Shown here: one piece after another, positions 32,299 through 57,104 of the stretch | Layout: the number at the start of each line of letters is the position of its first letter | Position numbering within the stretch: the first letter of the stretch is position 1 | Assembly: GCF_000243115.2 (NCBI RefSeq) | Contig: NZ_CP007035.1 | Location: forward strand, 1,488,001 to 1,552,000 | Direction of reading: 5' to 3' | Length of the DNA: 64,000 nt | Source: Niabella soli DSM 19437 | GTDB lineage: Bacteria; Bacteroidota; Bacteroidia; Chitinophagales; Chitinophagaceae | Program-made: the position numbers and the translations under genes | The notes under the pieces: model-generated | Databases searched by the model: none | Told to the model about the DNA's origin: nothing | Seen by the model: only the letters and a program-made list of their open reading frames with translations

Positions 32299-32739
32299 AT
32301 GCTAATGCCATTTGTAAAAGTATATCTCCATTTTGTGTGGAGCACCAAGAACCGTTATCCTTTTTTAAATTCAAAAGACCTGCGGATTAAGGTTTGGGAT
32401 CACATCCGTGAAAATGCAAAAAGCAAAGGAATCTTTATTGATACTATTAACGGGCATACGGATCACTGCCATTGTTTAGTTTCTCTGGGAGCAGACCAAA
32501 CGATTCAAAAGACAATGCAATTAATTAAGGGAGAATCATCCTTCTGGATCAACAAAAGCGAATTAACGCCGGAGAAATTTGAATGGCAGGATGAATATTT
32601 TGTAGTCTCAGTGTCCGAATCAATAGTAGACAAAGTCAGAGCCTATATTAAAAACCAGGAAGACCATCACAAGAAAAAAACATTTCAGAATGAGTATGAA
32701 GATTTTATCGACAAATATGGATTTGAAAAATATGGCTAG
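32299..32739 (+). CDS. REP-associated tyrosine transposase (RAYT, Y1/HUH type)
   Basis: This 146-residue protein belongs to the IS200/IS605 transposase family (Y1_Tnp). HTDHCHCLVSL holds the HUH motif (His56, His58), and Tyr116 in VRAYIKNQEDHH is the predicted nucleophile. Sequence FVKVYLHFVWSTKNRYPFL is the usual N terminus. Single-copy relatives are called RAYTs and act on REP hairpins. Three hairpins follow the gene at 32782-32883. The ATG at 32299 or 32305 could serve. No terminal repeats of a classic IS are visible. Confidence 0.9.
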   Translation: MLMPFVKVYLHFVWSTKNRYPFLNSKDLRIKVWDHIRENAKSKGIFIDTINGHTDHCHCLVSLGADQTIQKTMQLIKGESSFWINKSELTPEKFEWQDEYFVVSVSESIVDKVRAYIKNQEDHHKKKTFQNEYEDFIDKYGFEKYG

Positions 32740-34202: not shown

Positions 34203-34254
34203 TTATACAATTTTAACAACAAACATAACATTAATTACCGGATGCCGGATATTT

Positions 34255-34288
34255 GATACCCGATACCGGATACCGGATATCGGGTATC
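34255..34288. repeat. GATACC-type hairpin repeat
   Basis: GATACCCGATA (34255-34265) pairs with TATCGGGTATC (34278-34288) in a perfect 11-bp stem. Around it GATACCGG words repeat. Words CAGTATCAA and CAAGAATC recur near 40070-40090, pointing to a dispersed intergenic repeat. Confidence 0.6.
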
Positions 34289-34402
34289 AAGCAACCAGTA
34301 TCAAGAATCAAGCATCATCCATCCCTTAAAAATACTTTTAACGAATTTTAACCTGATATAAATTGAGGAATTGTATATTCGTTTCCTGTAAAATAAGTAC
34401 CC

Positions 34403-50846: not shown

Positions 50847-52328
50847 ATGAGTATGGAAACTGATCAATTATTACACAGCAATCTAGCCACAGAACCAGAT
50901 GTTATTGAAAATCACGTAAATAGCGAGTATAAGTATGGTTTTGTTACAGATATTGAAATGGAAGCAGCCCCCAAAGGGCTGAATGAAGATACCATTCGTT
51001 TTATCTCTGGAAAGAAAAATGAACCCGAATGGATGCTGGAATGGCGCTTAAAAGCTTTTGCCCAATGGCAAAAAATGAACCCACCGCATTGGGCCAACCT
51101 TACCTACCCCACCATCGATTTTCAGGACATTATTTATTATGCGGCGCCCAAACAAAAAATAAAGCCCAAAAGCCTGGATGAAGTAGATCCGGAACTGATC
51201 AAAACTTTTGAAAAACTGGGCATCTCCCTGGATGAACAAAAACGCCTTAGCGGCGTTGCGGTGGATGCAGTGATCGATAGCGTATCCATTGGTACTTCCT
51301 TTAAAGACCAACTGGGCGAACTGGGCATCATTTTCTGTTCCATCAGCGAAGCCATCCAGGAGCACCCGGAGCTGGTGCGCAAATACCTGGCTTCTGTAGT
51401 GCCGGTGACTGATAATTTTTATGCCGCCCTGAACTCAGCAGTGTTTAGCGACGGTTCCTTCTGTTATATTCCCAAAGGCGTTCGCTGCCCCATGGAGCTT
51501 TCGACCTATTTCCGCATCAACGCCGAAAATACCGGCCAGTTTGAACGAACCCTGATCGTGGCCGACGAAGGCGCTTATGTAAGTTACCTGGAAGGCTGTA
51601 CCGCTCCCATGCGGGATGAGAACCAGCTCCATGCAGCAATTGTAGAGATCGTTGCCATGGACAATGCAGAAGTAAAATATTCAACGGTGCAAAACTGGTA
51701 CCCCGGCGATAAAGAAGGCAAAGGCGGTATTTACAATTTTGTAACCAAGCGCGGTATTTGTAAAGGGATCAATTCAAAAATATCCTGGACGCAGGTAGAA
51801 ACCGGCTCCGCCATCACCTGGAAATACCCCAGCGTAATTTTACAGGGCGATAACTCCACCGGCGAATTCTATTCCGTAGCCGTTACCAATAATTTTCAGC
51901 AGGCGGATACCGGTACCAAAATGTTGCACATCGGCAAAAACACAAAAAGCCGTATTGTATCAAAAGGGATCTCTGCCGGTAAAAGCCAGAACAGCTACCG
52001 CGGCCTGGTGCGGGTGGGCAAGAACGCGTCCAACGCGCGCAACTTCTCGCAGTGCGACTCCTTGTTATTGGGCGACAAATGCGGGGCCCATACCTTCCCA
52101 TACATCGAAGTAAAAAATAATACAGGGGTGGTAGAGCACGAGGCCACTACTTCCAAGATCGGGGAAGACCAGATCTTCTATTGTAACCAACGGGGCATTG
52201 ATACGGAAAAAGCCGTAGCGCTCATCATCAACGGGTTTGCAAAAGAAGTGATGAACCAGTTGCCGATGGAGTTTGCGGTGGAAGCACAAAAGCTGCTGGC
52301 GATCAGCCTTGAGGGGTCAGTTGGATAG
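50847..52328 (+). CDS. sufB: Fe-S cluster assembly scaffold SufB
   Basis: This 493-residue protein has the SufB N-terminal helical part ([17 protein letters not shown]) and a beta-helix core with [41 protein letters not shown], the [20 protein letters not shown] block and the conserved C-terminal [22 protein letters not shown] with the cluster-ligand Cys. It forms the SufBC2D scaffold on which Fe-S clusters are built. Alternative start ATG at 50853. It is the first gene of the operon, followed by a foreign four-helix-bundle gene. Confidence 0.97.
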
Positions 52329-52331
52329 GAT

Positions 52332-52348
52332 GTTCAAAGTTCAAGGTT
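52332..52348. repeat. Inverted repeat left of the four-helix-bundle gene
   Basis: GTTCAAAGTTCAAGGTT, 4 bases after the sufB stop codon, is perfectly complementary to 52814-52830. Together they bracket the four-helix-bundle gene. Confidence 0.9.
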
Positions 52349-52416
52349 CAAAACCTCACCTGGAACTAAAATCATTTGAATAAAAGCAAATACAGAAAAT
52401 AGCTTAACCTGGAAAA

Positions 52417-52821
52417 ATGGCCGCAATAAAAAGATTCGAAGATCTGGACATATGGCTGGAGGCACGTGAGTTGTGTAAACAGATACACCTCATCGTAACA
52501 AACACCGGTCTCAAAAGCGACTATAAGTTGCGTGATCAGATCAAAGGATCATCAGGTTCTATAATGGATAATATAGCTGAAGGTTTTGAGCGAAATGGCA
52601 ATAATGAATTCCGGCAATTTCTTTCTATTGCCAAAGGGTCTGCAGGAGAAACCCGCTCACAGCTTTATCGTGTTCTGGATTGTGAATACATTGATGAACA
52701 ACAATTCACAATTCTAAAAAGCAAAGCGGAAGGGCTTAGTGGTAAAATAAGCAACTTTATAACATATCTAAATAATAATAATTTTAAAGGCTCAAAATTC
52801 CAAACGGGTACCAAACCTTGA
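52417..52821 (+). CDS. S23-type four-helix-bundle protein inserted in the suf operon
   Basis: This 134-residue protein starts FEDLDIWLEARELCKQIHLI and contains LRDQIKGSSGSIMDNIAEGFERNGNNEFRQFLSIAKGSAGETRSQLYRVLD, the signature of the S23/IVS-type four-helix-bundle family (TIGR02436-like). Relatives are encoded in 23S rRNA intervening sequences and, as Avd-like proteins, near diversity-generating retroelements. No reverse transcriptase is nearby. It lies between sufB and sufC in the same direction, and its stop codon lies inside the right-hand 17-base inverted repeat. It has no known role in Fe-S assembly; it is probably mobile or passenger. Confidence 0.9.
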   Translation: MAAIKRFEDLDIWLEARELCKQIHLIVTNTGLKSDYKLRDQIKGSSGSIMDNIAEGFERNGNNEFRQFLSIAKGSAGETRSQLYRVLDCEYIDEQQFTILKSKAEGLSGKISNFITYLNNNNFKGSKFQTGTKP

Positions 52822-52830
52822 ACTTTGAAC
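52814..52830. repeat. Inverted repeat right of the four-helix-bundle gene
   Basis: AACCTTGAACTTTGAAC is the exact reverse complement of 52332-52348. It overlaps the last codons and stop (52819-52821) of the gene. Further TTGAAC words follow to 52840. Confidence 0.9.
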
Positions 52831-52860
52831 CTTGAACTTTAAAACCGTTGAACAATTAAC

Positions 52861-53610
52861 ATGTTAAGTATTAAAAACCTGCGTGCAGGTATTGAAGGCA
52901 GAGAAATTTTAAAAGGTATTAATTTAAATGTGAAGGCGGGTGAAGTGCACGCCATCATGGGACCCAATGGTTCGGGCAAAAGCACGCTGGCCTCTGTATT
53001 AGCGGGCAAACAGGATTACGAAGTAACCGGCGGTTCTGTAACCTTTGAAGGCAAAGACCTTTTAGAACTGGCTCCGGAACAACGTGCCGGTGAAGGCATC
53101 TTCCTGAGCTTTCAATACCCCGTAGAGATCCCGGGTTTAAGCACGACCAATTTTATGAAGACCGCGGTGAACGAGGTCCGCAAATACCGTGGGCAGGACG
53201 AGCTGGATGCTGTTTCTTTCCTCAAAAAGATGAAAGAAAAAATGGCCCTGGTAGAGATCGATCAATCCATGCTAAGCCGTTCTTTAAACGAAGGGTTCTC
53301 CGGTGGGGAAAAGAAACGGAATGAGATCTTCCAGATGGCGATGCTGGAACCCCGGCTGGCGATCCTGGATGAAACGGATTCCGGTCTGGATATAGACGCC
53401 ATCCGCATTGTGGCAAACGGAGTGAACAAATTACGTACGCCTGAAAATGGTATATTGGTCATTACCCACTATCAACGCCTGCTGGATTATATCGTTCCGG
53501 ATTTTGTGCATGTATTGTATAACGGACGTATCGTAAAATCCGGCACTAAAGAACTGGCTTACGAGCTGGAAGAAAGGGGATATGATTTTATAAAAAGCGA
53601 AGTAGCGTAA
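52861..53610 (+). CDS. sufC: Fe-S assembly ATPase SufC
   Basis: This 249-residue ABC ATPase has Walker A GPNGSGKST (near residue 40), the signature LNEGFSGGEKKRNEIFQMAML and Walker B LAILDETDSGLDIDAI. ITHYQRLLDYI has the switch His. It binds SufB and SufD and drives cluster assembly. It follows the four-helix-bundle gene by 39 bases. Confidence 0.97.
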   Translation: MLSIKNLRAGIEGREILKGINLNVKAGEVHAIMGPNGSGKSTLASVLAGKQDYEVTGGSVTFEGKDLLELAPEQRAGEGIFLSFQYPVEIPGLSTTNFMKTAVNEVRKYRGQDELDAVSFLKKMKEKMALVEIDQSMLSRSLNEGFSGGEKKRNEIFQMAMLEPRLAILDETDSGLDIDAIRIVANGVNKLRTPENGILVITHYQRLLDYIVPDFVHVLYNGRIVKSGTKELAYELEERGYDFIKSEVA

Positions 53611-53743
53611 ACAAATGTGGAAATGTGGAAATATGAGAATGAGGAAATGGGGCTGGCTTGTAACATTGTAACACATTTAAAAACCGGAGTACTAATTTTC
53701 ACATTTACACATTTTCACACTTACACATTTCTTAAATTAATCA
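53611..53743. repeat. Simple-word inverted repeats between sufC and sufD
   Basis: AAATGTGGAAATGTGGAAAT near 53614 mirrors the downstream words ACACATTT, CACATTTACACATTTTC and ACACTTACACATTTC (53671-53729). The spacer is 133 bases, long for an operon. No gene or terminator seen. Confidence 0.6.
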
Positions 53744-56982: not shown

Positions 56983-57104
56983 TTTTGGATGCATAATGCT
57001 GAACGCATAACGCTCAATGCGGTAATAGGTAATAGTCAATGGTTCATTGTTCATAGCGAAAGATTGAACCATGAACTAAAAACTAATAACTAAAAATTTA
57101 CACA

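Follow-up and report, generated by a model that had tools for sequence, protein, structure and literature searches.

What is a gene of the S23 family doing inside an Fe-S operon of Niabella soli DSM 19437, framed by inverted repeats, and what sort of unit do the gene and its repeats make up? We consider this for the window, meaning the whole 64,000-nt stretch analysed (all coordinates below are counted from its first letter), for the complete N. soli genome (4.70 Mb, single contig; G000), and for S23 genes of relatives and of other phyla.

The S23 unit between sufB and sufC

The gene (52417..52821, + strand) encodes a protein of 134 amino acids that matches PF05635 (E=3e-32) and TIGR02436 (E=1.1e-28) in profile searches. 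Its AF2 model (pLDDT 91.5) has four long helices, and Foldseek matches the model to 2gsc and 2rld, both entered as uncharacterised, and to Avd (4dwl, 8ube). Profile scores above cut-off and the four-helix fold place it in the S23 / 23S_rRNA_IVP family; no nuclease domain was recognised in the profile searches. The flanking genes, which we take to be sufB upstream (50847..52328; named from operon conservation) and sufC downstream (52861..53610), with sufD presumably following, lie like S23 on the + strand, so the earlier note was right that an S23-family gene sits in the Fe-S operon in the operon's own direction. The site is thus a protein-gene spacer and not a 23S rRNA gene. S23 is the only coding content of the unit, with no Y1 transposase gene inside.

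Both arms of the unit are tandem arrays of heptads. The left array (52332..52352, + strand; GTTCAAA, GTTCAAG, GTTCAAA) begins 3 bp past the sufB stop codon, and the inverted right array (52814..52843, - strand) includes the S23 stop codon. The perfect 17-base inverted repeats previously described here, the right one with the stop codon, are exactly as claimed (52332-52348 and 52814-52830, 100% complementary); a second, overlapping inverted pair of 20 bp is 95% complementary, and the build of both arms from 7-nt units (GTTCAAA/GTTCAAG) is a feature absent from that description. We scored arms by aligning 250 bp of upstream sequence to the reverse complement of an equal length downstream: this locus scores 17.5, and the 99th percentile of 333 ordinary ORFs is 16.4.

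The exact end GTTCAAAGTTCAAGG has three copies in the genome. Two are at this locus and the third is not at another S23 gene, so the expectation that other S23 genes would carry GTTCAAAGTTCAAGG ends fails for this genome, most loci having units of their own; what most other S23 genes examined have in common with this one is the design of inverted arrays, not an exact sequence. The third copy is part of a long run of several heptad families (L015, ~1200-1800). Terminal inverted repeats common to other copies, as IS elements and MITEs have, were not found for the window locus, and no pair of empty and occupied suf sites had edges clean enough to read a target-site duplication.

Heptad arrays at S23 genes in many phyla

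PF05635 has 12 matches in the N. soli genome, one under the curated cut-off. Matched inverted arms are detected at nine of these loci, the exceptions being L004, L009 and L012; the detection level of 12.5 is the 95% level for swapped partners in a set of 106 loci (these 12 and 94 from relatives, 5 of them suf-site and 89 taken mostly by E-value among the matches listed). Units at the N. soli loci include TTATCAG, AGTTCAT, GCTTAAT, GTTTATT, GATACTG, GGTTACA and TGTGAGAA. L004, L006 and L012 occupy spacers, and the genes adjoining them appear by eye to be hisF, uvrB and dihydrofolate reductase.

Across the 106 loci the median inverted score was 15.0, against 9.0 for direct alignment and 9.0 for swapped partners; 78 loci reached the 95% swap level and 21 the 99% level, in a set whose swap tail is raised by same-site relatives. 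A second set came from the best 80 of 568 matches to a query alignment led by suf-site S23. Among the 77 of these with >120 bp on both sides, 65 scored at least 12.5, and by the set's own swap levels 66 passed at 95% and 50 at 99%. By record title, loci at or above 12.5 come from at least ten phyla. A third sample was taken from the phylum of a Gastranaerophilales genome, which we take to be cyanobacterial, and where 74 of 146 genomes have PF05635; here 32 of 35 loci reached 12.5 and 30 of 35 their own 95% swap level, counting the multiple copies of one genome, G158, as one. Only 11 of the 333 ordinary ORFs, sampled from N. soli, reached 12.5, and the pooled S23 loci score far above controls. 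It is well supported that the S23 genes examined, from many phyla, are mostly framed by matched inverted heptad arrays. A search of 16 loci for a possible rRNA location of array-poor S23 genes found no rRNA family match.

Flank autocorrelation in the 106 loci peaks at lags 7, 14 and 21 (0.33-0.38, against mostly 0.26-0.30 elsewhere), and lag 7 with 14 and 21 stands out in the other two sets too. Lag 8 is also detected, at 18 of 106 loci per side. Counting only arms that exceed 99% of shuffles (55-64 per side), median array length is 34-35.5 nt, or about 5 units (range 2 to 19). Some other S23 loci have period-8 arrays beside them, e.g., L010, and the arms of L158 have a period of 9 rather than 7 nt (GTTCAAATC).

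The unit sequence is mostly private to its locus, around a loose common core. In 147 arms (score at least 14, length at least 21 nt) we counted 124 distinct consensus units, and high-copy exact repeat families were not seen for two unit patterns searched, which gave at most 3 matches per genome. Phase alignment yields the core NNNAGTT (A 0.60, G 0.74, T 0.54, T 0.54) with 1.53 bits, compared with a maximum of 1.20 when unit positions were permuted per arm; the 31 arms of the cyanobacterial-type set show it only weakly (0.91 bits). The arms of L061 contain TCAGTTA, the complement of TAACTGA.

Such a core, giving one AG per 7 nt, together with a left arm poor in C (7-11%), is what might be expected if the arrays were regulatory and not mobile: S23 would bind its own arrays as operators and control its own or the host operon, the gene being an occasional operon member. 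TRAP, which binds spaced AG triplets, offers an analogy. The arms are inverted, however, and their mismatches show no preference for an RNA strand, which speaks against this reading; we return to it below with the suf sites.

The lack of strand preference also bears on another idea, an RNA intervening sequence outside rRNA: base-pairing between the arms in the suf mRNA would let RNase III remove the S23 segment, in the manner of 23S rRNA. The gene family is that of the rRNA intervening sequences (IVSs), the flanks are inverted, and PMC4990558 describes for the Coxiella IVS an excision by RNase III, with heptads (GACAGAT) in tandem upstream of the S23 start, two or three of them according to strain. 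Pairing of the sense RNA predicts more G.U than A.C mismatches. At the 160 of 218 loci with detectable arms the counts were 142 G.U and 171 A.C (p=0.11), opposite to expectation, and at L001 S23 appears by eye to be antisense to its neighbours. We rejected this reading on the missing G.U excess and consider it most improbable.

Could a transposase carry the unit? A DDE, Y1 or other enzyme acting in trans might move S23-heptad units as it would MITEs, and one genome looks just like this. G158 (L344-L352, L354, L355, L314) has 12 closely similar copies of S23 with heptads, most in a MITE with ends AACTGACGTTACGCA and TGCGTAACATCAGTT; both outer ends are present in 9 of 10 inspected copies and a matching duplication of ~3 bp in 7 of those 9 (by eye). 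Y1 genes occur in 33 of 39 genomes, N. soli included, where they lie away from the S23 unit and are without heptads. Outside G158, however, the 124 units in 147 arms provide no common end for one enzyme to use, and G026, with six S23 genes among the matches listed, has no Y1 match. Nor does the period of the arrays point to RAYT: 21 RAYT loci gave no lag-7 signal (0.257), and many carry CCCCGTAGGGGC-type (GTAG-like) palindromes instead. We therefore dropped RAYT as a mover, and consider transport by any transposase in trans unlikely. Reverse transcriptase in trans was likewise rejected: PF00078 had no matches at E<=0.001 in N. soli, and none were found in G001, which has at least 20 S23 matches; the enzyme is present in 17 of the 39 genomes.

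Several related observations may be recorded here. A transposase gene of Y1/RAYT type lies at 32317-32658 of the window, and after it come palindromes whose cores resemble GGCTAAAGCC (by eye), a classical RAYT-REP arrangement unlike the heptads. In many G158 copies a second insert, rich in arrays and with CCGAACTGAGG at its ends, appears by eye to interrupt the S23 gene, and L346 and L352 have flanks in common.

Turnover of gene, arms and site

SufB was found in 33 of the 39 genomes, and 29 sufB-sufC junctions were read, that of N. soli and 28 from relatives. Six have an open S23 frame (G000, G005, G007, G014, G015, G031), five have S23 pieces and/or arrays (G004, G006, G009, G010, G016), one has a gene-less inverted heptad pair (G020), and 17 have only a short spacer of 23-131 bp. 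The empty sites predicted for relatives thus exist. The wider proposal of a small mobile or domesticated unit lacking its own transposase stands in so far as the unit is inserted, dispensable and free of transposase; fixed ends of the IS kind are not supported. The sufB stop codon is TAG at 9 of the 11 occupied or remnant junctions (exceptions G004 and G007), often running directly into the array, and TAA at 16 of the 17 short ones (exception G033). In G014 the suf-site S23 frame (L018) is open, with ATA where G015 has ATG (by eye); loss of the start may therefore be under way in this copy.

In the S23 tree the suf-site genes of G000, G005, G014 and G015 group together (100/96), while much else is unresolved. 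That of G007 (L026) groups with L101 from another site (99/82), apart from this clade, and a single ancestral suf insertion was rejected on this basis. The suf-site units in G007 and G031 are unrelated.

Flavobacterium shows the gene at either of two junctions. L210 carries S23 between sufB and sufC, and its sufC-sufD junction holds a gene-less pair with the unit GTTTAAA. In L209, L217 and L233 the positions are exchanged: S23 lies at sufC-sufD, and sufB-sufC has gene-less arms together with what appears by eye to be an S23 3′ remnant. Either way, the unit at the junction without S23 is identical or similar to that at the gene. Eight of the best 80 of 568 scan loci are in suf operons, a share inflated because the scan alignment was led by suf-site S23.

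The presence of S23 in suf operons of several Bacteroidota groups (found with this suf-biased query) and its persistence at shared sites would suit the regulatory reading introduced above. Against it, the gene has been lost and is decaying at suf, and arrays with no gene to serve outnumber S23 loci about tenfold in N. soli, if a 464-kb sample is extrapolated. All told, control by S23 of its own expression or the operon's strikes us as rather unlikely, although less so than carriage by a transposase.

In that sample we counted 13 arrays of period 7, including one at S23. Some form hairpin pairs, others stand alone. Gene-less examples in the window are arrays of 7/8-nt units paired in inverted orientation between sufC and sufD (53613..53731; AATGTGG.. 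/ ..CACATTT), a partly palindromic GATACCG array of period 7 (34248..34291), and composite heptad arrays at 56990..57096 (57065-57093 by scan, the rest by eye). By eye, several congeners have similar gene-less pairs with other units at sufC-sufD, while G001 has a spacer of 18 bp there and G007 one of 23 bp. The two arms of such a pair change unit jointly (by eye), and an S23 gene in cis is therefore not required. Further samples gave 30 period-7 arrays in 400 kb of G020 and 9 in 240 kb of G004. Compared with arms taken from other phyla, those of resident S23 genes are the better match for gene-less arrays, with p=0.045 for G000 and p=0.004 for G020; for G004 the difference is not significant (p=0.25). 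The preference is only moderate, and G000 gene-less arrays match G004 S23 arms (13.0) as well as their own (12.6).

That gene-less arrays are common, and that gene-less pairs also have matched arms, might mean that no protein is involved at all, slippage and template switching making the arrays and hairpins, and S23 being merely tolerated between them. This would leave unexplained why S23 genes of at least ten phyla are so flanked and RAYT genes and ordinary ORFs are not, and why units track S23 similarity across sites; we judge it very unlikely.

The relation between arms and protein is clearest where the site is held constant. Flank comparison gave 19 same-site groups, with 67 pairs in which both arms were detectable. 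For the 16 pairs with S23 identity <56% the within-element score was 16.75 and the cross-element score 9.1, in the same direction in 16 of 16; for the 16 pairs with identity of at least 80% the values were 17.1 and 17.75. At the same site, then, diverged S23 genes go with unrelated units, yet the two arms of each element agree.

Arms also follow the protein between sites. In the phyla set (best 80 of 568; 45 flank-similar pairs dropped), arms were common to both loci (score at least 14) in 4 of 26 different-site pairs with at least 60% identity vs 23 of 1640 below that, with an overall correlation of rho 0.157 (0 of 500 permutations). Among relatives they were common in 44% of 32 such pairs and in 0-5% of pairs in lower identity bins (rho 0.071, 25 of 500 permutations). 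G002 has two S23 copies, L058 and L079, 80% identical and at different sites, with one unit; because the spacing between gene and arms differs between them, the comparison gave no single precise edge for the element. Nor are the arms of broken S23 genes clearly worse: they were detected at 5 of 10 such genes vs 73 of 96 others (p=0.12; rank test p=0.60).

A proposed one-gene element, and its relation to known systems

The reading we prefer, if with rather less than even confidence, is of a one-gene element lacking a transposase, whose S23 ring reads the element's own arrays and which moves by host recombination. Recognition of its own arrays by an S23 ring seems the most economical account of the matched arms, and we favor movement over regulation as the use to which it would be put. 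The element would consist of the S23 gene and an inverted pair of tandem heptad arrays with a unit mostly its own; the ring would contact the arrays, perhaps with one heptad per protomer, and protein and unit would co-evolve. Host replication and recombination may homogenise the arms, through strand annealing or template switching between arrays. Arrays bound at both ends might also allow the unit to be copied or moved by the same host processes without a transposase; of these two steps we are least sure. Gene-less heptad arrays would be relics and possible landing sites.

Movement of this kind must be rare, since many sites are common within a genus or beyond (the 19 same-site groups above). 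In the loci examined we saw neither excision nor target duplication of the arrays themselves, and in G158, the sole recently multiplied case examined, the copies end not at the heptads but beyond them, at the terminal repeats of a surrounding MITE. Most broadly, all S23 genes of bacteria, those of ribosomal IVSs included, could form one selfish class that does without a transposase: a ring protein with no enzymatic activity would recognise, at either end of its element, a seven-letter word private to it. Relics and landing sites of this class could then account for the heptamer repeats of Cyanobacteria, Bacteroidota and perhaps Xanthomonas. We think this generalization doubtful.

S23 proteins are described in the consulted portion of PMC4990558 as widespread and structurally solved, with no known function, and the Xanthomonas structure there is a homopentamer. 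In the part seen of a CRISPR-mining paper (PMC10910872) the domain is named in a legend and nothing more. Like the IVSs of 23S rRNA that encode S23 (Coxiella, Leptospira), the window unit has its S23 gene within complementary flanks. It differs in its location in a protein-gene spacer, in having arrays on both sides with mostly private units, and in showing no sign of RNA pairing.

Intergenic heptamer repeats share with S23 arms their tandem 7-nt units and mostly intergenic location. According to the sections consulted, TAACTGA repeats (MacGregor, 2015; PMC4679880) are 7-nt tandem repeats, mostly intergenic, of Cyanobacteria and Bacteroidetes, and the GGGAATC and GGGGA(C/T)T heptamers (Rehm, 2015; PMC4692102) form convergent inverted pairs in Xanthomonas, in 70 and 75 cases, and are generally not associated with mobile elements. 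The window arms are tandem 7-nt intergenic units of the TAACTGA type, although the S23 stop codon falls inside the right array. The term "s23" has no matches in the main texts of these two papers.

Avd of the diversity-generating retroelements has the same fold as S23 (4dwl, 8ube); the S23 unit differs in that its genome has no reverse transcriptase match. A parallel in layout is RAYT-REP/REPIN, where as in the S23 unit a gene lies between inverted repeats and the repeats also occur in gene-less copies, as REPINs do. RAYT, however, belongs to the Y1 transposases and its REP sequence is conserved, while S23 has no recognised nuclease domain.

Within the full-text literature searched, which mostly excludes subscription papers, we recognised no paper that links S23 genes to heptad arrays outside rRNA. 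The S23/IVS kind and the heptamer repeats are each known, then; the link between them outside rRNA appears to be new, and a new class of element is a bold and as yet unproven reading of it. The link supplies the heptamer repeats with a candidate owner and the orphan S23 family with a direct test. If the S23 ring does bind its own heptads, it would define a mobile-like class of element without a nuclease of its own, and more than 100 natural pairs of protein and word in which to follow the evolution of nucleic-acid recognition.
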